DNA from: a virus | IMG/VR virus record: IMGVR_UViG_3300018071_000003 | Location: 1 to 50,944 of that record | Reading direction: 5' to 3' (one strand) | Length of the DNA stretch: 50,944 nucleotides | Shown here: positions 23,116 to 50,836 of the stretch, piece by piece | How the letters are laid out: each line of letters begins with the position of its first letter | Position numbering within the stretch: position 1 is the first letter of the stretch | Program-made: the position numbers and the translations under genes | Notes under the pieces: generated by a model | Told to the model about the DNA's origin: nothing | Database searches by the model: none | What the model saw: only the letters and a program-made list of their open reading frames with translations

Positions 23116-23329
23116 CTTCTGGTTCTCCCTCTTGGTAGTCAAACTCTGGTTCCCACGCTGCCATTTCTCGGAATGCGTGTATCATGCCCTTAAGAAAACG
23201 ATCAAATTCTGCATCACTGGAATCGACGATTTGACCCATCGCCTCATCCATCCGTTCATTTAGAACTTCCTTTAGAACTTCCGTTACCGGATGATTTTGC
23301 CACTCCACCACTTGCTCTTTGCTTAGCAC
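23087..23329 (-). CDS. Small acidic phage protein
   Basis: About 80 residues from GTG at 23329, chosen because AGGAGG lies six bases upstream; an ATG further upstream at 23374 has no such site. The protein is acidic with a helical middle and an L-S-K-E-Q-V-V-E-W N-terminus, like short proteins found after portal genes in related phages. Its first 74 bases lie inside the end of the LAGLIDADG gene, suggesting that gene was inserted upstream and extended into this one. Confidence 0.6.
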   Translation of the reverse strand: MLSKEQVVEWQNHPVTEVLKEVLNERMDEAMGQIVDSSDAEFDRFLKGMIHAFREMAAWEPEFDYQEGEPEDEVSSGDAS

Positions 23330-23699
23330 TCGCTGCCTCCTTTCGCTTTCTCCAAAACTCTTTTTGCCATCCACCGCGCCCCGGTTTTATCTTCCAAGCT
23401 GCAATTACTTCTTCTATTTTAGAACGCCGTCTAATTCCCAACATTGTATATAATGTAAACATCCAACTAATAGCTTTTTTACCAAATATTTGTGCACAAT
23501 ATTGGGTTTTACGATTATTTTCTTTTTCACGATTATATGTATAATATGAAATTTTCCAATATTTAGATAATCGTTCAATAATATCTTTATCTGTCATTCT
23601 AACAACAATACATGGACTACCTTGGCGACCTACACCTTGAATACAACCTTCACCTTCCACAATTCCTGCAATCCAATTAAGATTTGGAACCGTTACCAT
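23256..23699 (-). CDS. LAGLIDADG homing endonuclease
   Basis: A 147-residue protein with one LAGLIDADG-type motif at the N-terminus: W-I-A-G-I-V-E-G-E-G-C-I near residues 9-20, including the acidic metal-binding Glu. Single-motif members act as homodimers that cut long DNA sites. The C-terminal 45 residues are basic and Gly/Ser/Lys-rich. The gene starts inside the last 23 bases of the portal gene and ends inside the next gene, and its own body is AT-rich. No intron is apparent, so it is a free-standing homing gene wedged between portal and a small virion gene. Confidence 0.75.
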   Translation of the reverse strand: MVTVPNLNWIAGIVEGEGCIQGVGRQGSPCIVVRMTDKDIIERLSKYWKISYYTYNREKENNRKTQYCAQIFGKKAISWMFTLYTMLGIRRRSKIEEVIAAWKIKPGRGGWQKEFWRKRKEAASAKQRASGGVAKSSGNGSSKGSSK

Positions 23700-27570: not shown

Positions 27571-27846
27571 CTATTTCATCCTGGCATTCTTAGTTCTATT
27601 AAAAGATCTATTCCTATGAGCAGAAATAGCACGAGTATTCCCAAGGACATTAGAACCCCCTTTAATAAGAGGATTAATATGATCAACATCGGTTGACCCA
27701 GATAGATTCCCATGAACTGACTCATACTTACGTCGTGCCTGATTTCTTAACGAACGATTGTGTATCTGTTTAGGCTTCCCTTGGTAGTTCAGATACTCCC
27801 GCTTATAATTACGTGTTTGTGTCTTGTGTGACCGGCTCTGCGGCAT
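27571..27846 (-). CDS. Small HNH endonuclease
   Basis: A 91-residue, strongly basic protein. The HNH core is D-V-D-H-I-N-P-L near 53-60, followed by G-G-S-N, N-T-R and H-R-N-R-S-F-N-R near 76-83. Similar small HNH nucleases lie beside terminase genes in many phages and can assist packaging or act as homing enzymes. Its start overlaps the end of the small terminase gene by 38 bases. Confidence 0.7.
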   Translation of the reverse strand: MPQSRSHKTQTRNYKREYLNYQGKPKQIHNRSLRNQARRKYESVHGNLSGSTDVDHINPLIKGGSNVLGNTRAISAHRNRSFNRTKNARMK

Positions 27847-34330: not shown

Positions 34331-35065
34331 TTGGGACATGATTTTTGTCGTGCGCATTATCGAATTAAACATGAACAAGAAGACTCATGGCTTCAACCTC
34401 ATACCCAGTCTTGTTATTCTGAAGTTCGTGTCAATTATAATGCTGTTGCAATTCGGGTTAAATATATTCCAACTTTTAAGGGGACACCGGGGACACGTGG
34501 TAGTATATATCCGTGCCAGTTAACTCCTGCTAAAGCCGAAAGATTTATTAGTGATGTCTTGGAAATTTGTCCGGGAGTAGCAACTCGCGTAGATGAATAT
34601 GTGTTTGAATTTCCTCTCGGCACTTGGCCAAACTATTGGAAGTTTCTTGGGGTTGCTTCCCTTTTACGTTATATTGAAGAGTGGTGGATGTGGGTTGATC
34701 ATTATTTTGAAATGGTTGACAGCGGAATTCCAAAAGATGTTGCTGCAATTTGTATGGGACTTTATGATAAAGACAGTGTGGTGCTTTATTGTGGACACGC
34801 ATTTAATGGAACCTTGTCTGATTTAGCAAGTTTGAAAGATTTTAATTTAAAAGATGTATTCTTAAAATCTTGTGAAACTGCAACATCGCACTCAACTATA
34901 TGGCACCTGTTAAACCAACGTCCTTGGTTTACTGTTGGTGAGTACAATTTCGCCGACTGGTTCAAAATGACACCACAAATATATAAAATCTTTGTGAATG
35001 ACTCTTCGATTAAAGAAAAACAACAAGCACTTGGTATGCTTCATGTATACAAGGCACTTTTATGA
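34331..35065 (+). CDS. Unknown protein leading the amidoligase cluster
   Basis: About 244 residues starting at TTG 34331, immediately after the previous stop; GGAG sits about ten bases upstream. The sequence is rich in Trp, Tyr and His, with W-W-M-W-V-D-H-Y-F near 118-126 and L-Y-C-G-H-A-F near 152-158. I recognise no domain. The stop overlaps the ATG of the glutamine amidotransferase gene by four bases, so it is co-translated with it and may be a partner subunit or substrate-binding protein. Confidence 0.6.
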   Translation: MGHDFCRAHYRIKHEQEDSWLQPHTQSCYSEVRVNYNAVAIRVKYIPTFKGTPGTRGSIYPCQLTPAKAERFISDVLEICPGVATRVDEYVFEFPLGTWPNYWKFLGVASLLRYIEEWWMWVDHYFEMVDSGIPKDVAAICMGLYDKDSVVLYCGHAFNGTLSDLASLKDFNLKDVFLKSCETATSHSTIWHLLNQRPWFTVGEYNFADWFKMTPQIYKIFVNDSSIKEKQQALGMLHVYKALL

Positions 35066-35742
35066 AACTAGTCAGTGCAATTTATAAAGACTGGTATCCA
35101 TTTGATAAGATGTTTCAACAACTAAAAGTTGGATTCCATCCCATCCAACTTGACGGAGCTTCGGCGTTGTTGTTGTGGGGTGGCGAAGACATTAGCCCAT
35201 CTATTTATAGACAGAAGTGTCCGAAAATTGTTTATTCCGGTCCAGACGAGCCATCTGTTCGTGACTTAATAGAAATTGCTTTAGCCAAAGAAGCGATCCG
35301 TCTCGGCATTCCAATCATTGCAATTTGTCGAGGCGCACAACTCATGTGTGCATTATCGGGCGGAAGTTTATTCCAGCATGTGACACATCATGACGGTCCA
35401 TCTCATGTCTGTCAAACCGATGAAGGAGGAGAAATTGTGTCTAATTCAGTGCATCATCAGATGATGAATGTGGAGAAAACAAACTATCATCGAATCGCGT
35501 GGATTGAGCCTGGCATCAGTAGCGTGTACATAAATGGGGATGGGCCTATTGAGGATCATCCTAAGTTTGAACCTGAAATTGTCTATTTTCCCGAGACAAA
35601 AGCCCTTTGTATTCAAGGGCATCCAGAGTATATGGAAGAAAAGAATCCATTCGTGAAATATTGCTTAGAACTAGTTGATAAATATGTTCTGTCGAACGTA
35701 GTCTTAAACAAGACAGATGAAAATGAACACCATCGGAGCTGA
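35062..35742 (+). CDS. Class-I glutamine amidotransferase / gamma-glutamyl hydrolase
   Basis: A 226-residue protein of the class-I amidotransferase superfamily, closest in pattern to the PuuD/peptidase C26 type. The nucleophile is the Cys in I-A-I-C-R-G-A-Q-L near residue 91. The catalytic His and Glu lie in I-Q-G-H-P-E-Y near 186-192. The oxyanion region is L-L-W-G-G-E-D near 37-43. It would release ammonia from glutamine or cut gamma-glutamyl bonds. Its gene overlaps both neighbours and leads into two amidoligases, an organisation described for phages in the amidoligase survey of Iyer and colleagues (2009). Confidence 0.85.
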   Translation: MKLVSAIYKDWYPFDKMFQQLKVGFHPIQLDGASALLLWGGEDISPSIYRQKCPKIVYSGPDEPSVRDLIEIALAKEAIRLGIPIIAICRGAQLMCALSGGSLFQHVTHHDGPSHVCQTDEGGEIVSNSVHHQMMNVEKTNYHRIAWIEPGISSVYINGDGPIEDHPKFEPEIVYFPETKALCIQGHPEYMEEKNPFVKYCLELVDKYVLSNVVLNKTDENEHHRS

Positions 35743-36487
35743 TCCCGAGCTGTTCTTGCAAGATAAGTCAGGTAAGTTTATATCGGCAGTTGGGAAATTC
35801 GGCGGCACAAAAGAACAACCACGCCCGCTGCTTAACATTCCCGGTTATATGGTGCAGGAAGATAATGTAGCGGTGGAGTTTAATATTCCACCTTGTGAAA
35901 TTGGAAACTCTCACAACTTTTCCCAGTCAATTGCAATTGCGATGAATGCACTTGAGCAAGAAGCACATGCGCTCAAGCTTAAGCTTGTTGTTGTAGCATC
36001 TGCTGAGTTCGAAGCTGATCAACTTGTAGCCCCACAAGCTAGGCGATTTGGGTGTGATCCTGATTTCAATGTGTGGTCGTTGAAGGTAAATCCTCCGCCT
36101 CGTGCAAAGAACAAAGCACTACGTTCTTGCGGCGGACATGTCCACTTTGGAGGAAGGTTTACAGATAAAATTGGTTTTGGTCGGGCGTGTGATTTATTTA
36201 TGGGATGCCCAAGTATTTTATTTGACCCAGATCAAAATAGACGACTCTTGTATGGTAAAGCTGGAGCAATTAGATACAAACCATACGGAATTGAGTATAG
36301 AACCCTATCCAATTTTTGGGTTAAATCAGAGGAATTGTCTGCTATGATTCACGATCAAGCAGTGAAGGTCTTTAATTTCAGGAAGGTAATTCCTGATGAG
36401 GATGGGCGTGCAATTATTAAGTGCATCAATGAAATGGATCAAAATTTACTACGAGAACTCACTGAAAAATATGGATTAATTTATTGA
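35717..36487 (+). CDS. Phage-type COOH-NH2 ligase (amidoligase)
   Basis: A 256-residue protein matching the phage-type COOH-NH2 ligase family (Pfam COOH-NH2_ligase_2), which has the glutamine-synthetase fold. Signature parts are I-G-A-D-P-E-L-F near 6-13, V-A-V-E-F-N near 51-56, F-G-C-D-P-D-F near 112-118, G-G-H-V-H-F-G near 138-144, and L-Y-G-K-A-G-A-x-R-Y-K-P-Y-G-x-E-Y-R-T-L-S near 175-195. These would bind ATP and metal to activate a carboxylate and join it to an amine. The start overlaps the amidotransferase gene by 26 bases; a Met three codons on is an alternative. Confidence 0.85.
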   Translation: MKMNTIGADPELFLQDKSGKFISAVGKFGGTKEQPRPLLNIPGYMVQEDNVAVEFNIPPCEIGNSHNFSQSIAIAMNALEQEAHALKLKLVVVASAEFEADQLVAPQARRFGCDPDFNVWSLKVNPPPRAKNKALRSCGGHVHFGGRFTDKIGFGRACDLFMGCPSILFDPDQNRRLLYGKAGAIRYKPYGIEYRTLSNFWVKSEELSAMIHDQAVKVFNFRKVIPDEDGRAIIKCINEMDQNLLRELTEKYGLIY

Positions 36488-37117
36488 ATGGATAACCTCG
36501 AAGATTTTCATCAGAAATATCACAACACTTGGGTTCAATATCGTTCTGATGGTGTGTTGTCTCCAGCTCTAATTGAATTGATACAATTTGGTGAAAAATT
36601 AATATATATTCGTAGTTTGGAACTTGGAATAGTGTCGATTAAATATACAGAAAACCAATTGAAAGAGAAATTAGAACTATCACCGCCCCAAACCGGGTAT
36701 TTCAATTATAATGGGCACGCACTTGTCTTATTCAAGATTCCCGTAAGACAGTGGCGTGTCGGGCTTTGTCATGAAAATCATGAAATATACAATCCTTTCA
36801 AATACCTGTTGAATTCCGGAGTTTATCGTCCAACCTTCGGAGAAAGAACAGTAAGCGCTTTATTCAATCCAGCTTACATTCCTGACCCTCAAATAGCTTA
36901 TTCTATGTTTAATAAGAGCACTCATTCCGTTGCTCTTTCATGCCATCTTATGATTTCTAAATCACCTACAGAGAAACATTCAGGGCCACTTATCTGGTTT
37001 GATTGTAATCCATGTGGATTTATCCAAAGATCAAAATTTGTAGTCGAGGATGAATTATTTCGACAGGAAATTGAAGATGAATTACATCGCCTTGGACAAG
37101 AGAAATGGATTTTTTAG
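36488..37117 (+). CDS. Unknown protein inside the amidoligase cluster
   Basis: A 209-residue protein starting directly after the previous stop. It contains Y-F-N-Y-N-G-H-A-L-V near 71-80, W-R-V-G-L-C-H-E-N-H near 89-98 and W-F-D-C-N-P-C-G near 175-182. I recognise no family. Two ligase genes enclose it and its end overlaps the next gene by 13 bases, so it is likely a subunit or acceptor for the same reaction. Confidence 0.6.
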   Translation: MDNLEDFHQKYHNTWVQYRSDGVLSPALIELIQFGEKLIYIRSLELGIVSIKYTENQLKEKLELSPPQTGYFNYNGHALVLFKIPVRQWRVGLCHENHEIYNPFKYLLNSGVYRPTFGERTVSALFNPAYIPDPQIAYSMFNKSTHSVALSCHLMISKSPTEKHSGPLIWFDCNPCGFIQRSKFVVEDELFRQEIEDELHRLGQEKWIF

Positions 37118-38133
37118 CACACCTTGTTAAAGATTATGGAGGTCGTTGGAATGATCTTGCCCGGCTAAGTTATCCATTTGAAGATTATATGAAAGCAATT
37201 CCAGTTGCTAGCTATAAACCATTTGAAATGGTGCGTCCTCGTTTGAAAATAGGTATTGAAGTAGAAGTAGAAAAGGTAGCTCATCATCTAGGTGTGAATA
37301 TGGCCAATGAAATGTGGATGACACGAGAGGATGGTTCTCTCAGACAAGGTGGAATCGAATTCGTCTCTATTCCAATTGCAGATCAACAAATTCCTTGGGC
37401 CATTCACTATTTATTCGATCAATATTTACCTAAAGACGCTGATTTCTCAGCCCGCACATCTATTCACGTCCACGTGAATGTCCGTAATTGGTCATGTAAG
37501 GAGATTTTGAATTTGATTTTGTTATACATTGTGTTTGAACGGTTGTTATATCGTTTTGCAGGACCACAACGCTATCAAAACATTTTCTGTGTGCCTATTC
37601 GAGAAACAAAACTGCCAATTGTATTATCAAATTATTTAGCAAATGGAAATTTTCAAGGTTTGCTAGAATCTTGGACTAAATATAGTGGACTTAATTTAGT
37701 ACCTATTCGTAAATTTGGGACAGTTGAATACAGGCATATGCGTGGACACCGTAACACTGAATATCTTTTAAATTGGATTAATGTTATTCAGCAACTTCAC
37801 AAAACAGCATGTAACGTAGATTTTATTGAATTATTTGATGAAATTAAAATGTTAAATACAACTTCTTCGTATGAACAATTTCTTATGAATACATTCAAAG
37901 ATCAATCTGTGTTTCTACTTGGTAAATGTAGTTTACAACGAGAAATGGAATACGGAGTTTCTATAGTAAAAAGTATTCAACCACCATCGCAATTTATTAA
38001 AAAACTACTTAATGACATTTCAAATGAATCCGACTTGCTTCAAAGTTTGAAAATAATTGATAAACAAACTAAAAAAGATATTAATTACTATGCCCCTGGG
38101 GTTTGGGATGTCATTGATGGAGTAGTAAGATAA
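37105..38133 (+). CDS. Amidoligase (Amidoligase_2 type)
   Basis: A 342-residue protein of the amidoligase superfamily. Signature parts are the G-I-E-V-E-V-E strand near 50-56, R-E-D-G-S-L-R near 74-80, G-I-E-F-V-S-I-P near 83-90, and S-I-H-V-H-V-N-V-R near 119-127, followed by F-G-T-V-E-Y-R-H-M-R-G-H near 205-216. These resemble the ATP- and metal-binding sites of glutamine-synthetase-like ligases. It is a second, distinct ligase in the cluster, so two successive amide bonds could be formed. It overlaps the preceding gene by 13 bases. Confidence 0.8.
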   Translation: MDFLAHLVKDYGGRWNDLARLSYPFEDYMKAIPVASYKPFEMVRPRLKIGIEVEVEKVAHHLGVNMANEMWMTREDGSLRQGGIEFVSIPIADQQIPWAIHYLFDQYLPKDADFSARTSIHVHVNVRNWSCKEILNLILLYIVFERLLYRFAGPQRYQNIFCVPIRETKLPIVLSNYLANGNFQGLLESWTKYSGLNLVPIRKFGTVEYRHMRGHRNTEYLLNWINVIQQLHKTACNVDFIELFDEIKMLNTTSSYEQFLMNTFKDQSVFLLGKCSLQREMEYGVSIVKSIQPPSQFIKKLLNDISNESDLLQSLKIIDKQTKKDINYYAPGVWDVIDGVVR

Positions 38134-39570
38134 ATGTGTGGAATTGTAGGGCTTGTAACTAAATCAACTAATGGTTGTACTGCTTTTCAGCAGGAACTAT
38201 TTGCTGAAATGTTAGTGTGTGATGCAATTCGTGGAGAGGATTCCACAGGTATTTTCGCAGTTAATAATTCCGGAAACGTCACTTACATTAAACTTGCAAG
38301 TCATCCTTTTAATCTTCTTAAGACCAGCGAATATCTAACATTAAAACAGGATTCTTGGAACTCTGGACGTATCTTGGTTGGTCACAATCGGAAGGCATCA
38401 AGTGGAGCAATTTCTAACGAAAATGCACACCCATTTGCATTTGGGCCTATTGTTCTTGTTCATAATGGGTTCATTGATAATTTTCGTAGTCTCGTTCATC
38501 ACAAAGAACGTGAGAAGAACAATATTGAAGTAGATTCTCATGCATTAACGTCTTTGTTGGCGCGCAATGATCCAATGAAAATTATTCCTGAATTGAAGGG
38601 AGCTTTCGTTATCATATGGTATAACGCAACAGAGAAAAAACTATATTTTGTTCGCAACACAGAACGTCCGTTTTCTTTAGTAGATATAAATGATGGAATT
38701 TATTTTGCGTCGGAAAAAGGAATGCTTCGATGGCTCTTGCATCGTCATCAAGCTAAAGCCGAAATTGCAGAAATAAAACCCGGTGTCTTACTTTCCTTAG
38801 ATGAGAATAATGTTTGGGAAAACAGGCCCGTTAAGCTTTATGAGAAACCTGCGGTGTTTGTTCCTAAAGAATATGCTCCACCAGCAACAAATGGAGAGAT
38901 AGTTTATCTCCCTAACCAAATTAAGCAAGTTCCCAAAACAATTGACATGAAACTTGAGGAATCATTTAATATCCATTATGGTGATGATCATGATGTTGAT
39001 TTGACTAATGCACCACCCTTTCCACAAATTGTATTCTCTGTTGACGACTACAAGAAAGTCTCTGAAGACCACGTAAATCCTCCTGTATGGAGACTGTGGG
39101 GCAAGGCACTAGACTCGGAACAAATTGATGTCTATTGTCAATTTAGAGGAACAGAAACACAATGTGACGAATATGCCTATCAGGCATTTTTAACAGGGCA
39201 CATTAGTAGGGTCTCCGATAGAATTATCAATAATCAACAGGGTCAGGCTGTTTACTGTCTGCATCCGAAACTATGCGAAATTACAGCAACGTCAGATAAT
39301 TTCGCAATTACCACAGAGCATTTAGCATATTTGCAGAATAAATCTAAATGCACTTGTGGGCATGTGGAAATTTCGACTATGAATGATGAAGACAAGGTAG
39401 TTATGAGACTTGGATTTGAAACTCAGATAACCTGTAAATGGTGTTTAGTAAATACTCCAGAGTGTAAAGAATTGTGTAAAGAGCCAGGGCAATGTCAATA
39501 TTGTGTGGGTGAAAAACAAAAGGAAGAAGGTGAAAAGCTTAAGAATATTGCCGTACAAGCCAGGAAGTAA
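38134..39570 (+). CDS. Class-II glutamine amidotransferase
   Basis: A 478-residue protein. It begins M-C-G-I-V-G-L-V, so removal of Met exposes the Cys nucleophile at residue 2 of Ntn-type amidotransferases. Further family parts are R-G-E-D-S-T-G near 33-39, G-H-N-R-K-A-S near 84-90, H-P-F-A-F-G near 99-104 and V-H-N-G-F-I-D near 108-114. The N-terminal 250 residues are the amidotransferase; the rest has no clear domain but ends with many Cys (C-T-C-G, C-K-W-C, C-K-E-L-C, C-Q-Y-C), likely zinc sites. It would give ammonia to a ligase. It begins right after the amidoligase and overlaps the ATP-grasp gene. Confidence 0.85.
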   Translation: MCGIVGLVTKSTNGCTAFQQELFAEMLVCDAIRGEDSTGIFAVNNSGNVTYIKLASHPFNLLKTSEYLTLKQDSWNSGRILVGHNRKASSGAISNENAHPFAFGPIVLVHNGFIDNFRSLVHHKEREKNNIEVDSHALTSLLARNDPMKIIPELKGAFVIIWYNATEKKLYFVRNTERPFSLVDINDGIYFASEKGMLRWLLHRHQAKAEIAEIKPGVLLSLDENNVWENRPVKLYEKPAVFVPKEYAPPATNGEIVYLPNQIKQVPKTIDMKLEESFNIHYGDDHDVDLTNAPPFPQIVFSVDDYKKVSEDHVNPPVWRLWGKALDSEQIDVYCQFRGTETQCDEYAYQAFLTGHISRVSDRIINNQQGQAVYCLHPKLCEITATSDNFAITTEHLAYLQNKSKCTCGHVEISTMNDEDKVVMRLGFETQITCKWCLVNTPECKELCKEPGQCQYCVGEKQKEEGEKLKNIAVQARK

Positions 39571-40369
39571 GTCCGCTAGAGCCATTGCTAAGGCGCTCAA
39601 TGGATTGAGAGTTAGATTCAATGGTTTGTTCCGCCCAAAACTTAAACATCTTGTGGTCAATTGGGGTAAGGTAGCCAAGCCTAGGTGGTGGATTACCGGA
39701 TTGAATGATCCTGCGAAAGTGCAACTATCATCAAACAAGCTAACGGCATTGTCGTGTTTAAGACAAGCAGGAGTTTCCACACCGGAGTTTACTGATGACA
39801 TTCAAACAGCGCGTCAATGGTGGTTGTCCGGATCAGTTGTTGTCGGACGACAGATTTTAAATGGTCACGGAGGTATAGGATGTATTATTTTTCATAAAGA
39901 TCGAGACGACGTTGACGGTGGGTTTGACGGAGAACCACGAGATTGTCCTTTGTATACTAAACACCTACGTCATAAACGTGAATTCCGCATTCATGTCTTT
40001 AAAGGACAAATAATTGACCAAGTTGAAAAGCTCAAAAAGAAAGGATTTGAAAACCGTAACTCATGGATCAGGAACTACAATAATGGATATGTCTTTGTAC
40101 GTGGCGGTGTTGTCATTCCCAAATGCGTACGAATGGAAGCACTTCAAGCTGTCCAAGCCCTACAGCTTGACTTCGGGGCAGTCGATGTGGCGTATCGTGA
40201 AAAAGAAGACAAAGCCTACGTGCTAGAGTGCAACACAGCACCGGGTATTGAAGGGCAAACAATTAGGAGCTACATTGAAGCAATTAGACAAGAACTTCAA
40301 AGGAAGGTAAAATCCAATCATGGTAACCACTTTATTCATCTTCTTAGTATTCAACGGAGAAAAAAATAA
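39530..40369 (+). CDS. ATP-grasp ligase
   Basis: About 279 residues from GTG 39530, preferred over GTGs at 39503 and 39509 because of the AGGA sequence at 39521. The fold pattern is that of ATP-grasp enzymes of the phage or YheC/D-like type: a Gly-rich N-G-H-G-G-I-G loop, K-R-E-F-R-I-H-V-F, and the C-terminal V-D-V-A-Y then V-L-E-C-N-T-A-P-G, giving the Mg-binding Asp, Glu and Asn. Such enzymes form peptide or amide bonds through an acylphosphate. It closes the cluster and overlaps the class-II amidotransferase gene by 41 bases. Confidence 0.82.
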   Translation: MKSLRILPYKPGSKSARAIAKALNGLRVRFNGLFRPKLKHLVVNWGKVAKPRWWITGLNDPAKVQLSSNKLTALSCLRQAGVSTPEFTDDIQTARQWWLSGSVVVGRQILNGHGGIGCIIFHKDRDDVDGGFDGEPRDCPLYTKHLRHKREFRIHVFKGQIIDQVEKLKKKGFENRNSWIRNYNNGYVFVRGGVVIPKCVRMEALQAVQALQLDFGAVDVAYREKEDKAYVLECNTAPGIEGQTIRSYIEAIRQELQRKVKSNHGNHFIHLLSIQRRKK

Positions 40370-44019: not shown

Positions 44020-44363
44020 GAAAACTATTGTTGCTGTTGGTGTGTGTACCATCGTTTGCATTTGCACAAGGAATAGATTTTACACGTCCTCCTGCTCCAG
44101 ACTGGCCCAATCTTGAGATTGTCAAACACTATGGAAACATTACAATTTGTACGCAGCCTTTAGGTATTACAACAATTGCTTGTGCTACACCTGATTTTAA
44201 GAATAATAAGTGCGATGTCTACCTTCCGTCTGCACCTGTCTTACGTTGGATTGTTCAACACGAAGAAGCCCATTGCCAAGGATATGATCATTATGAAGAC
44301 TCGGTAATGCACGATGCTTGGGAAAATTACAAAAAGGATCATAATGAAGAAGGGGAAGAATGA
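44016..44363 (+). CDS. Small secreted protein with metzincin-type motif
   Basis: A 115-residue protein with a signal peptide (residues 1-17, cleavage likely after A-F-A) and no lipobox. The segment H-E-E-A-H-C-Q-G-Y-D-H near 82-92 is an exact H-E-x-x-H-x-x-G-x-x-H motif, the zinc-binding and catalytic signature of metzincin proteases. Four Cys residues could form disulfides in the periplasm. The length is far below usual metzincins. Possible roles are cleavage of a host envelope protein or immunity-type inactivation. Similar short HExxH proteins occur in phage genomes without known function. Confidence 0.6.
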   Translation: MRKLLLLLVCVPSFAFAQGIDFTRPPAPDWPNLEIVKHYGNITICTQPLGITTIACATPDFKNNKCDVYLPSAPVLRWIVQHEEAHCQGYDHYEDSVMHDAWENYKKDHNEEGEE

Positions 44364-44366
44364 GGA

Positions 44367-45062
44367 ATGAAGCTCTGTGTTGACACCGAAATTACCACCT
44401 ACGCGACAGGTAATGCTTTTAGCCGTCGTAACCATTTGTGCTGTGTTTCTGTTCGTTCGGACAACGACGGGGTTACTAGGTGCATCAAATGGGAGCATAA
44501 CGGAGAGCCAGTATCAGCAGATAATGTCTCATATCTACAGGATGCCTTAAACCGTGCCTTATTGGTCATTGGCTTTGCCATCAAATTTGACTTGCATTGG
44601 CTTCGCCGTTGTGGTATAATAGAGGGGTATTCTTTTGAAAACTTACAGATTTGGGACTGCCAACTCGCACAGTTTGTCATTCAATGTCAGTCGGAACGAT
44701 ATCCGTCACTCGACAAGTCGTGCGCTTATTTTAACCTTGGCCAGAAATCGACGATCATTGAGAAAGAATATTGGGATCGTGGAATTGATACGGACCAAGT
44801 ACCTTGGGAAATCTTAGAAGAGTATGCTAATCGGGACGTAGATTTGACGTGGGAGTTGTATCAAGCACAACAGAAATACTTGACCGACAAACCGGCCTTA
44901 CTACGTCTAATTAAACTGAGTTGCATGGACACACTTGTACTTGCGGAAATGGAATATAATGGTTTGAAATATGATGTAGAAGAATCTCTGAAAAGAGCAG
45001 CACAAAAACAACAGGAGATTGACGAAATTGAGAGGCAAGTTAAAAGCATCTGTCGTATTTAA
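44367..45062 (+). CDS. DNA polymerase A, part 1: exonuclease domain
   Basis: A 231-residue segment with the 3'-5' proofreading domain of family-A polymerases. Exo I is C-V-D-T-E near 4-8, Exo II is I-G-F-A-I-K-F-D near 68-75 and Exo III is Y-A-N-R-D-V-D-L near 152-159. The frame ends at a stop after residue 231, in the middle of the polymerase thumb. The continuation is found in another frame from 45040 on, so a single-base deletion or sequencing error in an A run (45041-45044) or T run (45057-45059) is likely. The start has GAGGA upstream. Confidence 0.8.
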   Translation: MKLCVDTEITTYATGNAFSRRNHLCCVSVRSDNDGVTRCIKWEHNGEPVSADNVSYLQDALNRALLVIGFAIKFDLHWLRRCGIIEGYSFENLQIWDCQLAQFVIQCQSERYPSLDKSCAYFNLGQKSTIIEKEYWDRGIDTDQVPWEILEEYANRDVDLTWELYQAQQKYLTDKPALLRLIKLSCMDTLVLAEMEYNGLKYDVEESLKRAAQKQQEIDEIERQVKSICRI

Positions 45063-45067
45063 GACTG

Positions 45068-45565
45068 ATGAATAATGCAGGTTTTAGCTTTAACAGTGGA
45101 GAGCATCTTTCCGCTCTTTTGTATGGTGGTGTTGTGCGTTTTGTTGAATCAACTCCTTATCTGCATACGTTCAAGACTGGGCCACTAGCAGGCCAAACGA
45201 AGGAACGATTCATTAAAAAGAAGATAGAGACTACTCTACCTCGCCTTGTCGAACCGTTACCCAAAACCGAGTTGAAGAAACTAGGTTATTGGTCTACGGA
45301 CGCATCAGTGCTAAGTCGGTTAAAAGCCAAAGGCACTGCTCGACGAGTCGTTGAGCTTATAAAACGAAGAAACGAACTCGAACGACTTGTTTCTACCTAC
45401 TATCATGGAATACCGAAAACCATTGAAGAGAAAGATTGGGAACCCGGATGGCTACACGGCCAGTTCAACCAAGTTACTGTTGTCACTGGCAGAACTTCGT
45501 CTAGTAGTCCTAATTTGCAAAACATGGCATCAGAGGTGGACGAATTAATAAAAACAAGGTTCTAA
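45068..45565 (+). CDS. DNA polymerase A, part 2: thumb and palm start
   Basis: A 165-residue segment in the -1 frame relative to part 1. F-N-S-G-E-H-L-S-A-L-L-Y-G-G near 8-21 is the thumb-region motif of phage family-A polymerases. V-V-T-G-R-T-S-S-S-S-P-N-L-Q-N near 137-151 is the strongly conserved segment before motif A. An ATG at 45068 could start it as a separate chain, or it is fused to part 1 in an undamaged genome. It stops 20 residues after the T-G-R-T segment, where the methyltransferase and HNH genes interrupt the polymerase. Confidence 0.8.
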   Translation: MNNAGFSFNSGEHLSALLYGGVVRFVESTPYLHTFKTGPLAGQTKERFIKKKIETTLPRLVEPLPKTELKKLGYWSTDASVLSRLKAKGTARRVVELIKRRNELERLVSTYYHGIPKTIEEKDWEPGWLHGQFNQVTVVTGRTSSSSPNLQNMASEVDELIKTRF

Positions 45566-46131
45566 TAGCCTGTGAATTTAGTGGCATTGTGCGCGAAGCC
45601 TTTAGAGTACGCGGCCATTCGGCATTATCGTGTGATCTGCTGCCTTGCGAGAGGGGACCAGAGCATCATTTACAGCAAGATATTTGTGACCTATTTGGTA
45701 CCATCCGCCGTTCGCTCGGTGACGGTTGGGAGCCTGATTTAATTATCGCTTTCCCTCCTTGTACGCATTTATCCGTAAGCGGGGCACGATGGTTCAAAGA
45801 TAAGCTTATAGAACAGGAAGAAGCTGTGAAATTTTTTATGGAAATGATAAATGCGCCAGCATTAAAAGTTGCGGTAGAGAATCCCATTGGCATCATGTCT
45901 ACTAGGTATCGTAAGCCAGATCAGATTATCCAGCCGTGGCAATTCGGACATCCTGAGACAAAGGCTACGTGTTTATGGCTAAAGAATCTGCCAAAACTAC
46001 AACCTACAAATGTTGTAGTTGGTCGTGAGGGACGGGTATGGAAACTAGGCCCATCCCCTAATCGATGGAAAGATCGTTCCAGAACTTACCAAGGAATTGC
46101 TGATGCAATGGCGGAACAATGGACTCATTAA
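45544..46131 (+). CDS. Cytosine-C5-type DNA methyltransferase-like protein, AUU start likely
   Basis: About 195 residues. Family features are V-L-I-A-C-E-F-S-G near 6-14 (AdoMet-binding motif I), I-I-A-F-P-P-C-T-H near 72-80 with the catalytic-type Pro-Cys, and V-E-N-P-I-G near 111-116. The GTG at 45589 would delete motif I, and no ATG, GTG or TTG lies upstream in frame. ATT 45544 has GAGG seven to ten bases upstream and is the best start. It overlaps the end of polymerase part 2 and the start of the HNH gene. The protein is short and lacks a clear target-recognition domain, so activity is uncertain. Confidence 0.7.
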   Translation: MNKNKVLIACEFSGIVREAFRVRGHSALSCDLLPCERGPEHHLQQDICDLFGTIRRSLGDGWEPDLIIAFPPCTHLSVSGARWFKDKLIEQEEAVKFFMEMINAPALKVAVENPIGIMSTRYRKPDQIIQPWQFGHPETKATCLWLKNLPKLQPTNVVVGREGRVWKLGPSPNRWKDRSRTYQGIADAMAEQWTH

Positions 46132-46493
46132 AATTCGCTTTGAATAAAAAAGAATATTATAAAGAATATTACCGTAGGAATAAATGGCGTTGGATTGAAC
46201 GTTATCATATTCTTACCGGAGAAGGTTCGGGAAGTAAAAAAGATTTAAAGGCATCTAATTATAAACATGGTCGAAGTTGTTTTCGTCGTTGGGCAAAGGA
46301 ACGCAAATTAAAACTACAACAATGTGAACGCTGTCAATGTAGTTTACTAAATGTTACATCATATCAATGGGCAGGACATCATAAAGATCACAATTCTACT
46401 AATAATACAATTATAAATTTAGAAGTATTGTGCAAGCGATGTCATCAAATAGAACACAAATGTTGGAAACAATTAAATGTTACTACAAGGTGA
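46119..46493 (+). CDS. HNH homing-type endonuclease
   Basis: A 124-residue basic protein. C-E-R-C near residues 68-71 and C-K-R-C-H near 108-112 form the zinc clasp, and G-H-H-K-D-H-N-S near 88-95 is the HNH core. It is more AT-rich than the methyltransferase gene. It overlaps that gene at its start and polymerase part 3 at its end, so the pair is wedged exactly between two polymerase segments. Such insertions at conserved polymerase sites are typical of homing endonucleases. Confidence 0.8.
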   Translation: MDSLKFALNKKEYYKEYYRRNKWRWIERYHILTGEGSGSKKDLKASNYKHGRSCFRRWAKERKLKLQQCERCQCSLLNVTSYQWAGHHKDHNSTNNTIINLEVLCKRCHQIEHKCWKQLNVTTR

Positions 46494-47217
46494 TATTAAG
46501 AGTTTGGAAATTGTAGCTGCGGCTTATTTAAGCCAAGATATCATCTTACAAGATGAAGTAAAACAAGGAAAGGATTTCCATAGTGATAATCAAAGGCGAT
46601 TTAAATTACCAGATCGTGTTACAGCAAAACGATTCGTCTTTAAGCTCATCTACGGAGCGTCTGCTTACGGATATGCAAATGACGGCGACTTCCAGACTAT
46701 TGGGTTTTCACAACGTCAATGGCAAGGAGTAATTGATGAATACTACGAGAAGTATAAAGGTATTCGACAGTGGCACCAAAACTTGGTGCGAAGCGTTCTT
46801 GAAACCGGATGCTACGTTTCTCCTACTGGTAGACGGTACGAGTACCCCTCTAAAGATGTTGCTTCAAGAGAGTGGTTCTGGAGACCTAGGATACTTAACT
46901 ATCCCGTTCAAGGACTTGGAGCAGATTTAGTGATGTTGGCTCGTATTAGTATGTGGAGACGAATACAAAGACTTGGTTTTTATGAAGTTCCTCCTGTTTC
47001 CAGTGTTCATGATTCGATTGTTCTAGACGTTCCGTCTGATAAATCTCTTGACATGAAGAAAGGATTGTGTTATACTATTGGTAAGATGTTGCGTAAATGT
47101 GTACAAGATGTTCCAATTAATTTCGAGAGGCAATTCGGCCAACCTTTCGACCTACCTTTAGATTGTGAAGTAAAGGTAGGACTTAACCTTGGGTCGATGG
47201 AGAAAATTGAATGCTAA
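46477..47217 (+). CDS. DNA polymerase A, part 3: palm and fingers
   Basis: A 246-residue segment with all polymerase catalytic motifs: motif A Q-G-D-I-K-S-L-E near 4-11, motif B R-V-T-A-K-R-F-V-F-K-L-I-Y-G near 47-60, and motif C V-H-D-S-I-V near 188-193. Its ATG 46477 directly follows an in-frame stop and lies in the end of the HNH gene, so it may be made as a separate chain that pairs with parts 1 and 2, or be joined to them by RNA splicing. It begins just where motif A should follow part 2. Confidence 0.85.
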   Translation: MLLQGDIKSLEIVAAAYLSQDIILQDEVKQGKDFHSDNQRRFKLPDRVTAKRFVFKLIYGASAYGYANDGDFQTIGFSQRQWQGVIDEYYEKYKGIRQWHQNLVRSVLETGCYVSPTGRRYEYPSKDVASREWFWRPRILNYPVQGLGADLVMLARISMWRRIQRLGFYEVPPVSSVHDSIVLDVPSDKSLDMKKGLCYTIGKMLRKCVQDVPINFERQFGQPFDLPLDCEVKVGLNLGSMEKIEC

Positions 47218-47708
47218 TATCAATTCAATCAGTAAACGTCACTCGTGCTCCTAAAGGGTATTCCATCGCAGAAGTAACATATCTGCGTGAGGGACGCGAA
47301 GAAGCTCGTAAGGTAATGTCATTTGTCAATGAAGGTGTATTTAAAACGGTTTCTGAATTTAAAGTTTTTCCAGTTGATGTTAATGTAACTCTTGCCAAAG
47401 AACGTGGTAAAGATGGAAAAGACTATTGGCAATGGAAGGCAATTGAACAGGGACAAACAGTGCAAAATGACGTTACGGCAAAAGCAGTAGATCCGAAGAT
47501 TCAAGGCGGCAAAGTTTATAGCTCCAATTATGAAACACCCACAGAGCGGGCTAAGAGACAAGTTTACATCGTACGTCAATCTAGCTTGTCAAACGCTATT
47601 GCACTTATGGCAGCACGTAGTCCAAAAGGTGCAGAAGTGAATGTTGAAAGTGTCATTGAAGTGGCGAAACAATTTGAAGAATATGTTCTCAACGTGGAGG
47701 TTGTATGA
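47211..47708 (+). CDS. Replication-region protein, possibly ssDNA-binding
   Basis: A 165-residue protein. The N-terminal 85 residues are beta-rich, with V-T-L-A-K-E-R-G-K-D-G-K-D-Y-W-Q-W-K near 59-76. That resembles OB-fold-type domains of phage replication proteins. The C-terminal 70 residues are a charged helical segment, without the usual acidic tail. Location directly after the polymerase suits a single-strand-binding or processivity role, but I cannot assign a family. Confidence 0.5.
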   Translation: MLISIQSVNVTRAPKGYSIAEVTYLREGREEARKVMSFVNEGVFKTVSEFKVFPVDVNVTLAKERGKDGKDYWQWKAIEQGQTVQNDVTAKAVDPKIQGGKVYSSNYETPTERAKRQVYIVRQSSLSNAIALMAARSPKGAEVNVESVIEVAKQFEEYVLNVEVV

Positions 47709-48865: not shown

Positions 48866-49063
48866 TTGGAACCCGGTACAATTACAAAAACAAGAAGCGG
48901 GGCCGCAGTGAGAATCTATTGTGTAGATGCTGGAGGTAGACATCCTATTCATGGAGCCTATTGGAACGCAATTGAAATGTGTTGGACGCCTTCCAGTTGG
49001 GACAAAGACGGATGTTTCGTAGGGGCTAAATGGCCCCGATCGGTTGATCTTGTCCAAGAATGA
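48866..49063 (+). CDS. Small phage protein, unknown function
   Basis: A 65-residue protein starting at TTG 48866 with AAGGAAA upstream. The parts G-A-A-V-R-I-Y-C-V-D-A-G-G and H-P-I-H-G-A-Y-W resemble a recurrent small phage beta-domain family. No function is known. It overlaps the start of the next HNH gene by 20 bases. Confidence 0.55.
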   Translation: MEPGTITKTRSGAAVRIYCVDAGGRHPIHGAYWNAIEMCWTPSSWDKDGCFVGAKWPRSVDLVQE

Positions 49064-49415
49064 ACATACCCGGAATGGAGGCACTTGGACGGAAGGACGA
49101 TTCCGTGGATTCATTACTAGTGCTCTTAGAGGGGCTTTTAGACGTTGGCAACCAAAGTATACAACACTTGCGAACAGTTGTGTCGGACGTAAGAAGAATA
49201 AACAATCAGGTAGGCTCGCAAAGCATTATAGATGCGCTATATGTAATGGAGCGTTCCCACAAACCGGAGTACAGGTGGATCATAAACTTCCTATCGGCAG
49301 TACGAAAAGCTGGAATGAGTTTATAGAAAAGCTATTTTGTGAATCAAACAACCTACAGGTTTTGTGCAAATTGTGTCATAAGAAAAAGACAAAGAAGGAA
49401 CAAGTGTGCAAATAA
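49044..49415 (+). CDS. HNH endonuclease with zinc clasp
   Basis: About 123 residues; TTG 49044 and TTG 49050 are both possible starts and neither has a clear ribosome site. H-T-R-N-G-G-T-W-T-E-G-R-F near 8-20, then H-Y-R-C-A-I-C near 61-67, V-D-H-K-L-P near 78-83 and L-Q-V-L-C-K-L-C-H-K-K-K near 103-114 match a widespread phage HNH family often found with replication genes. It may be a recombination or homing nuclease. Confidence 0.75.
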   Translation: MILSKNEHTRNGGTWTEGRFRGFITSALRGAFRRWQPKYTTLANSCVGRKKNKQSGRLAKHYRCAICNGAFPQTGVQVDHKLPIGSTKSWNEFIEKLFCESNNLQVLCKLCHKKKTKKEQVCK

Positions 49416-49618: not shown

Positions 49619-50418
49619 AGCACCTTGTCATTCCAGATGCACAGTGTAAGCCCGGTGTACCTCTAGAGCACCTTACTTGGGCCGGTAAGTACATTGTCGA
49701 AAAGAAACCTGATACAATTATCTGCATTGGTGACTTTGCAGATATGGAATCCCTTTCGATGTACGATGTAGGCAAGAAAAGTTTTGAGGGCCGACGATAT
49801 CAGTCTGACATTAAGTGTGCTCACGAATCAATGGAATTGTTACTTAGTCCTATATGGGATTTTAATGAGAAAGCTGCTCGAAATCATGAGAAACAATATT
49901 TTCCTAGGATGGTTCTTACCTTAGGGAACCATGAGGATAGAATTTCTAGATGTGTAGATGCTGACCCTAAACTAGATGGAGTCTTGTCTCTAAAGGATTT
50001 AAAGTATGAAGACTATGGTTGGGAAGTTTTCCCTTACCTCGAACCCATTATTATTGACGGAGTGGCTTACTGTCACTTCTTTACTTCTGGAGTGTTGGGG
50101 AAACCTGTCACAAGCGCAGCGGCGCTCCTTACTAAGAAGCACCAGAGTTGTGCTATGGGACACGTTCAGGGAAGGCAAATTGCATATGGAACAAGAGCCG
50201 ATGGTACGCAAATTACTGGACTTTTTGTGGGAGGTTTCTACCAACACGATGAAGCCTACCTTAGATGGCAAGGAAACAAGCACTGGCGCGGCTTGTGGGT
50301 CTTGCACCAGGTCCGAGAAGGAAGTTTCGATGAAATGCCAGTGAGTTTAGAATATTTAGGGATGAAATATGGTGGAAAACCACAAGATTGGTATGACAAA
50401 AAAGTGTCCAACGTGTAA
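49615..50418 (+). CDS. Phage metallophosphoesterase
   Basis: A 267-residue protein starting at TTG 49615, overlapping the preceding stop. Metal-site motifs are I-P-D-A-Q near 6-10, I-G-D-F-A-D near 38-43, L-G-N-H-E-D-R near 102-108 and G-H-V-Q near 181-184, typical of phage calcineurin-like phosphoesterases. It differs from the smaller enzyme at 43393 in length and motifs, so the phage carries two types. Substrate unknown; a DNA-end or nucleotide-processing role would fit the nuclease-rich surroundings. Confidence 0.8.
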   Translation: MKHLVIPDAQCKPGVPLEHLTWAGKYIVEKKPDTIICIGDFADMESLSMYDVGKKSFEGRRYQSDIKCAHESMELLLSPIWDFNEKAARNHEKQYFPRMVLTLGNHEDRISRCVDADPKLDGVLSLKDLKYEDYGWEVFPYLEPIIIDGVAYCHFFTSGVLGKPVTSAAALLTKKHQSCAMGHVQGRQIAYGTRADGTQITGLFVGGFYQHDEAYLRWQGNKHWRGLWVLHQVREGSFDEMPVSLEYLGMKYGGKPQDWYDKKVSNV

Positions 50419-50836
50419 TACCGTTAAGTCCATTGAGGCTTTTCAAAAAAATCGATGTGCACCTGATGGACTACAATGGCATTGCAAATTGTGCAGAAAA
50501 GTTATTGATTCTCGTCCTGAGAAACGTGCACAAGATCGTGCGCGTTATCATACAAATAAAGATCAATGGTTAGATCTCCATTTGAAAAACATGTATGGGA
50601 TTTCATTGTTTGAGTATAAACAAGTAGAAACACGTCAAAATGGTGTTTGTGCTATTTGTCAAAAAATATGTGCTTCTGGAAGAAAATTAGCTGTAGATCA
50701 TTGTCATGCAACAGGGAGATTCCGTGGACTTCTGTGTGGCAAATGTAATCAAGGAATTGGGCTTCTTCAAGAAAGTTCAGAACTTATGAAAAGAGCAATC
50801 AACTATTTGAAAAGTAAGTATGCCACTGCCAACTGA
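50393..50836 (+). CDS. Endonuclease VII-like recombination nuclease
   Basis: About 147 residues from ATG 50393. A zinc pair is C-P-T-C near residues 5-8 and C-K-L-C near 31-34, and the Endonuclease VII core is C-A-I-C-Q-K-I-C, then V-D-H-C-H-A-T-G-R-F-R-G-L-L-C-G-K-C-N near 111-129. T4 endonuclease VII resolves branched DNA before packaging. Members in other phages may act as HNH homing enzymes. The gene overlaps the phosphoesterase at its start and the next gene at its end. Confidence 0.82.
   Translation: MTKKCPTCNTVKSIEAFQKNRCAPDGLQWHCKLCRKVIDSRPEKRAQDRARYHTNKDQWLDLHLKNMYGISLFEYKQVETRQNGVCAICQKICASGRKLAVDHCHATGRFRGLLCGKCNQGIGLLQESSELMKRAINYLKSKYATAN

Follow-up and report, generated by a model that had tools for sequence, protein, structure and literature searches.

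The family-A DNA polymerase (PolA) gene of IMG/VR virus record IMGVR_UViG_3300018071_000003 was analysed in the context of the whole 50,944-base stretch (the window). The polymerase occupied positions 44367-47217, with open reading frame (ORF) coordinates identical to those of a first-pass annotation made from the letters alone, and its N part was separated from its C part by a DNA methyltransferase gene and an HNH endonuclease gene. That annotation had described a polymerase in parts with a methyltransferase and an HNH gene between them, and this was confirmed: the ORFs and the matches to PF01612, PF00476, phrog_757 and phrog_25862 were all found at the locus. The features are listed below.

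44367..45062, + strand: N chain part 1, 3'-5' exonuclease domain, 231 aa (PF01612, E = 2.8e-10; phrog_9556, E = 1e-31)
45060..45070, + strand: frame break, with a TAA stop and the ATG of the next ORF 5 nt on in the -1 frame (seen in the sequence)
45068..45565, + strand: N chain part 2, thumb and TGRTSSSSPNLQN segment, 165 aa (PF00476, E = 1.4e-15, and alignment)
45533..45538, + strand: Shine-Dalgarno-like GAGGTG before a presumed ATT start (match of 6 bases in the sequence; putative function)
45544..46131, + strand: orphan DNA methyltransferase with FPPC and ENP motifs (phrog_757, E = 2.9e-72); overlaps the end of the N chain
46119..46493, + strand: HNH endonuclease with GHHKDHN...LCKRCHQIEH (phrog_25862, E = 7e-25); overlaps both neighbours
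46477..47217, + strand: C chain of 246 aa, carrying palm, fingers and motifs A, B and C, N-terminus MLLQGDIKSLE (PF00476, E = 7e-27)
46642..46647, + strand: motif B site FVFK^LIYG, uninterrupted here; in relatives it holds a group I intron with an HNH homolog

Both PF00476 matches passed the cut-off. Profile positions 48-137 were covered by 45068-45565 and positions 154-377 by 46477-47217, and because these intervals adjoin, the two pieces meet without large loss. The residues of motifs A, B and C that were checked as invariant among relatives were all retained in the C part. As had been proposed, the interruption fell between the TGRTSSSSPNLQN segment and motif A; the division point lay 5 residues ahead of the catalytic Asp of motif A, with an equivalent place in E. 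coli Pol I. The possibility of another intact polymerase was also followed up, and no other PolA, PolB or PolC gene was found in the 50,944 bases of this linear, possibly incomplete record.

Division of the polymerase in relatives

Relatives were collected as 80 IMG/VR loci, which were typed with profiles of the exonuclease, the thumb and the C part. Among annotated phages, Methylophilales phages MEP402 and MEP401, together with two genomes from Manatee Spring, were nearest (40-45% C-part identity), followed by Alcaligenes phage QDWS535 (33% C-part identity); in all five the polymerase was encoded by two ORFs. More than 50 relatives were split at one and the same residue as the window. In the split loci of the window clade the N ORF ended in SRY, SRF or TRF and the C ORF opened with MLLQAD or a similar sequence. 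The window showed the same MEP401-type pattern, its thumb ORF ending in IKTRF, which is typical for the clade, and its C part starting at the same residue with M[LI][LI]Q. HMO-2011-like loci (L071 onward) carried a fused polymerase. The split loci, 57 of the 81 rows in a tree, all fell on one side of a branch with a support of 99; the window formed a long branch, the exact placement of which was unsure. As judged from these alignments and this tree, the two-chain split goes back to the common ancestor of a large clade, to which the MEP401-type phages belong.

The distance between the N and C ORFs of the relatives ranged from -17 to 3,601 nt. It was 60 nt or less in 15 of the 47 loci measured, often with overlapping ORFs (-17, -14, -4 and -1), so that no intron fits there; 12 of these 15 loci were out of frame and can therefore be joined neither by splicing nor by readthrough. 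In the alignment, the first residue of the C part was encoded by an ATG in 47 of 56 split loci compared to none of 27 fused loci, and a Shine-Dalgarno match of at least 4 bases preceded the C-part ATG in 35 of 48 split loci, compared to 28% of random ATGs. Stop-codon readthrough was rejected on the mismatch of frames in most close-spaced relatives, although the empty alleles of Vibrio phage ICP2 and its kin, described below, are in frame. One relative (L046) carried a stop in frame within its C part, at 688-690.

The AlphaFold2 model of the window C chain, in which residues 2-7 formed the first strand, had a mean predicted local distance difference test (pLDDT) score of 92.4 and matched residues 648-876 of Bst Pol I (Z 23.2, root-mean-square deviation 2.2, 218 residues). 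The N chain of a relative, L021 (AlphaFold2 pLDDT 90.2), matched Bst Pol I residues 313-646. Because these two matches adjoin, one Klenow-type polymerase is tiled by both chains, and by analogy the chains would be expected to assemble into an active polymerase.

The shared split residue, the ATG of the C part, the close or overlapping gaps and the empty alleles favoured the two-chain polymerase that had been put forward as one option in the first-pass annotation, and very probably the window polymerase consists of two separately made chains, without splicing. In the proposed mechanism, an N chain comprising exonuclease and thumb would be expressed separately from a C chain comprising palm and fingers, the two would assemble non-covalently, and the space between their genes would be a tolerated insertion site, here holding the orphan methyltransferase and the HNH gene. 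A two-chain replicative active site fixed across a phage clade bears on how essential genes separate and stay separate.

Genes at the junction

The methyltransferase belongs to the phrog_757 type, a common orphan enzyme of phages. There was no ATG, GTG or TTG at the homologous start; 57 of 75 methyltransferase homologs started at residue 4 with ATG or GTG, where the window has AAC (codon 45553), and the GTG start listed at 45589 removes the S-adenosylmethionine-binding motif. Upstream, the frame stayed open as far as an ATT at 45544, which follows the GAGGTG. This ATT is probably the start codon, and the position of the GAGGTG suggests that the enzyme would be expressed from it. Slippage by -1 near 45550, which would carry the N chain into the frame of the methyltransferase, was considered and not adopted; there is only a weak run of five A there.

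The window HNH endonuclease shared 47-52% identity with the HNH proteins of the relatives L061, L064 and L065, and the motif residues were common to all. PolA parts lay beside a gene of this HNH family in 47 of 68 IMG/VR loci; in 17 of those 47 the C part was interrupted at the same motif B codon, and conserved stretches of a group I core, such as GATATAGTC and ACAATCCCGAGCCAAGC, were present. The HNH stop codon in the window lay 151 nt upstream of the uninterrupted motif B site. Since its homologs sit in motif B introns and its own motif B, 151 nt away, is uninterrupted, the window HNH was taken to be an intron-type endonuclease that stands without an intron near the usual site of its family. 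An intron-family HNH gene without a ribozyme beside an intron-free motif B site is new, and it makes the proposed routes between free-standing and intron-encoded endonucleases testable within one gene.

Intronless homing is the most likely route of spread for this HNH gene: the enzyme would cut intron-free polymerase genes near motif B and be copied together with its flanks. The GC content at third codon positions of the first 58 C-part codons was 0.26 compared to 0.35, a value matched by equally extreme ones in 3 of 54 relatives and 37 of 209 other gene windows; a co-conversion tract from the HNH gene to motif B is only suggestive. Four more endonuclease-like genes were seen elsewhere in the window, at 23256-23699 (- strand, phrog_5046), 27571-27846 (- strand, phrog_4590, with a weak HNH match), 49044-49415 (+ strand, phrog_3106) and 50369-50836 (+ strand, endonuclease VII).

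The polymerase of ICP2 and its kin was also encoded by two ORFs, and alleles with and without an insert were available. In the empty alleles (Haiti, Saratov-12 and Rostov-5342) the N stop was followed by a 9-nt spacer, GGAATTACT, and then by an ATG. In the filled alleles ICP2, 2006_A, 2011_A and JPW one HNH gene lay directly after the same N stop, and in MJW an unrelated HNH gene occupied this position. The flanks of the filled alleles (L009, L012, L014, L015 and L017) were recoded relative to the empty ones (L010, L011 and L016), as homing predicts. No intron in the ICP2 polymerase was reported in the literature searched.

Other cargo was found between the halves in further relatives. A cluster of small, mostly acidic ORFs (56-128 aa) was present in 23 loci, for example at 3766-3999 of L003 and 7798-8001 of L021; the three that were tested had no PHROG family match, and no such ORF was found in the window. 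Their product is possibly an extra polymerase subunit. Other HNH genes in the gap formed at least three further groups (L012, L054, L057 and L068; L009 and L067; L052 and L056), the member from L068 belonging to an intron of the N chain, and some split loci had nothing in the gap. Because the relatives hold unrelated cargo or none, the junction has been invaded recurrently and the split is older than the cargo of the window. The earlier view of the methyltransferase and HNH genes as the cause of the split was accordingly not supported, the split being ancestral to the clade. One polymerase junction has been colonised by several unrelated endonuclease families.

Alternative readings

With good confidence, the locus was read as an ancestral two-chain polymerase, the junction of which has been invaded and in which an HNH gene most likely homes without an intron. 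Several observations weigh against this. A single-sequence search for close relatives of the window found none, and all relatives found were at most about 50% identical to the window, which precludes a selection estimate for its genes. The homing step is drawn from the family membership of the HNH gene. Group II introns were sought with Rfam alone, without a positive control, and no match was obtained at E up to 10 within 44300-47300. The statement in the first-pass annotation that all exonuclease and polymerase motifs were present held for polymerase motifs A, B and C but failed for the exonuclease (44367-45062): Exo I DTE, Exo III YxxxD and the Exo II Asp were kept, and Ala (codon 44577-44579) stood in place of the Exo II Asn that 28 of 28 relatives retain, a change that may weaken proofreading. 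The exonuclease and thumb formed a single ORF in all 58 split loci with both parts, the window being the sole exception. A decaying copy could be indicated by the frame break together with the Exo II replacement and the absent methyltransferase start.

The alternative that survived best concerns the frame break and is a tentative one, on balance doubtful, in which the exonuclease, thumb and C chain are three separate chains and re-initiation after the TAA yields the thumb. Only 5 nt separate the stop from the next ATG, the break coincides with a domain boundary and the remaining large ORFs of the record look intact; because separate exonuclease genes exist in phage LUZ24 and in the HMO-2011-like loci L088, L094 and L096, a real third subunit is possible. 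However, no other split locus divides the exonuclease from the thumb, there is no good ribosome-binding site ahead of 45068, and a one-base error in a metagenome contig would give the same picture. A programmed frameshift at 45060 was rejected, no suitable slippery heptamer being present. The break at about 45060 was considered to be, somewhat more probably, a sequence error or a recent mutation, and it may be an assembly error; since a sequence error is possible, the break was not counted as disqualifying the window from the MEP401-type group. It is improbable that three proposals hold jointly, namely that the replicase has three chains, that the HNH gene, beside its own target site, is a free-standing ancestor of the motif B intron endonucleases or an escapee from such an intron, and that the acidic protein of the relatives is an additional subunit holding the split polymerase together.

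A second alternative, that the window polymerase is a decaying pseudogene and another enzyme replicates the genome, would account for the break in frame, the replacement of the Exo II Asn by Ala and the two interrupting genes. It is very unlikely, given that the checked motif residues of the C chain are all intact, that the record holds no other polymerase and that the adjacent replication genes (primase, DnaB helicase and 5'-3' exonuclease) look intact.

The methyltransferase and HNH genes might also be a restriction-modification-like or self-protecting mobile cassette that was inserted as a unit, and their 13-nt overlap and probable co-translation would fit such a unit. This methyltransferase was not found within 3.5 kb of the HNH family in any of 68 HNH loci, however, nor was the phrog_25862 HNH family found at any of 80 methyltransferase loci, and the GC contents differed (45% for the methyltransferase, 32% for the HNH gene). 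A recurrent cassette was rejected on the absence of the pair from both sets, and insertion as a unit is highly improbable. Because the loci of neither family carry the other gene, the pair is probably a chance neighbourhood and not a mobile unit; the remark that a methyltransferase together with an HNH gene is unusual here was thereby upheld.

Splicing had been the other option raised at the outset, together with a covariance-model search for introns, and the methyltransferase-HNH segment could in principle be a self-splicing intron of group I or II that restores a single polymerase mRNA. The HNH family is mostly intron-encoded, real introns occur within the clade (L061, L064 and L065, and the N chain of L068), and a joined coding sequence was annotated by the depositors of ICP2 in two records. 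Rfam at gathering thresholds misses the introns of L061, L064, L065, Escherichia phage 4HA13 and LUZ24, and permissive thresholds and our own models were therefore relied on. At E up to 10, Rfam gave no group I intron match within 44300-47300; in the positive control, the permissive search detected RF00028 in L061 (E = 6e-5) and L064 (E = 1e-4). Two covariance models, R1 and R2, were built from 12 introns of relatives. Held-out introns, including that of 4HA13, scored 34-89 bits with R1 and 39-89 bits with R2 (plus one weak R2 match at 25 bits), whereas the best scores near the inserted genes were 13.5 bits for R1 and 5.5 bits for R2, so that no group I core (P3-P8) was detected there. With controls that worked in both searches, a group I intron in the window was rejected. 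Moreover, because the methyltransferase, HNH and C genes overlap one another, there is no space for the ribozyme halves. As the C part also has its own ATG throughout the clade and insert-free relatives are split all the same, an intron at this position is extremely unlikely.

Genuine group I introns in the polymerase of relatives were located in the C part at motif B (L061, L064 and L065) and after SSSKP in the N chain of L068 (2951-3617); the C part of L121 held two.

Comparison with known systems

A close parallel is provided by MEP401 and MEP402, phages of OM43 in the Zobellviridae (PMC10580990), which like the window are split at the same residue into an exonuclease and thumb ORF and a palm and fingers ORF with intervening DNA. 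Their gap holds one small ORF of the conserved acidic family, whereas that of the window holds the methyltransferase and the HNH gene, and the window has an extra break. The authors of the MEP401 study noted the small gap ORF and left it unknown whether a self-splicing intron was involved (PMC10580990). The comparative data, including the insert-free alleles, answer this intron-or-split question, short of experiment. ICP2 and its kin resemble the window in their two-ORF PolA, with an HNH gene between the halves in some strains and none in others; their split falls some 15 residues nearer the N-terminus, after PNLQNISN, and their HNH families, phrog_2081 and phrog_7545, are unlike that of the window.

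Two chains with a homing gene or spacer between them, as in the window, are also known from gene 43 of the T4-like Aeromonas phages 25 and 44RR and from nrdA of Aeh1, which is split by mobE (PMC2988022). Activity has been reported both for the divided gene 43 polymerase of phage 25 and for the divided NrdA of Aeh1 (PMC2988022). Gene 43 encodes a family B polymerase and nrdA a ribonucleotide reductase, in contrast to the family A enzyme of the window, in which the whole clade shares the split and the HNH gene came later.

The nicking HNH enzymes I-HmuI, I-BasI and I-PfoP3I, encoded in group I introns of phage PolA genes (PMC3428280), are tied to PolA as is the HNH gene of the window, a likeness by description. 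The homologs of the window HNH sit in motif B group I introns; the window itself, unlike I-HmuI, I-BasI and I-PfoP3I, has no intron. Free-standing endonucleases that cut intron sites, exchange of such genes with introns and collaborative homing are known ideas (F-CphI; PMC6083498, PMC2988022). F-CphI, MobE and SegG (PMC6083498, PMC2988022) share with the window HNH an intronless endonuclease gene beside its presumed target. F-CphI is of the Endo VII type and cuts the insertion site of an intron that is present in the genome, whereas the window has an intron-family HNH gene and no intron.

LUZ24, cited in the first-pass annotation as a phage with an intron in its polymerase gene, proved to be a partial parallel. 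In its record the exonuclease gene is separate, and an endonuclease VII gene, which has been described as part of a group I intron in the polymerase gene (PMC6083498), is flanked by pieces of the polymerase. The likeness does not extend to the arrangement: the endonuclease of LUZ24 is of another type and described as intron-encoded, the gene order differs, and LUZ24 was not among the matches listed. A gene run at 35062-40369 of the window resembles a cluster of LUZ24 that is annotated as amidotransferase and ligase genes.

Compared to these systems, in which the split had already been noticed in MEP401-type phages, what is new in the window is the cargo of a divergent member, the intronless HNH gene and the comparative evidence on the intron question.

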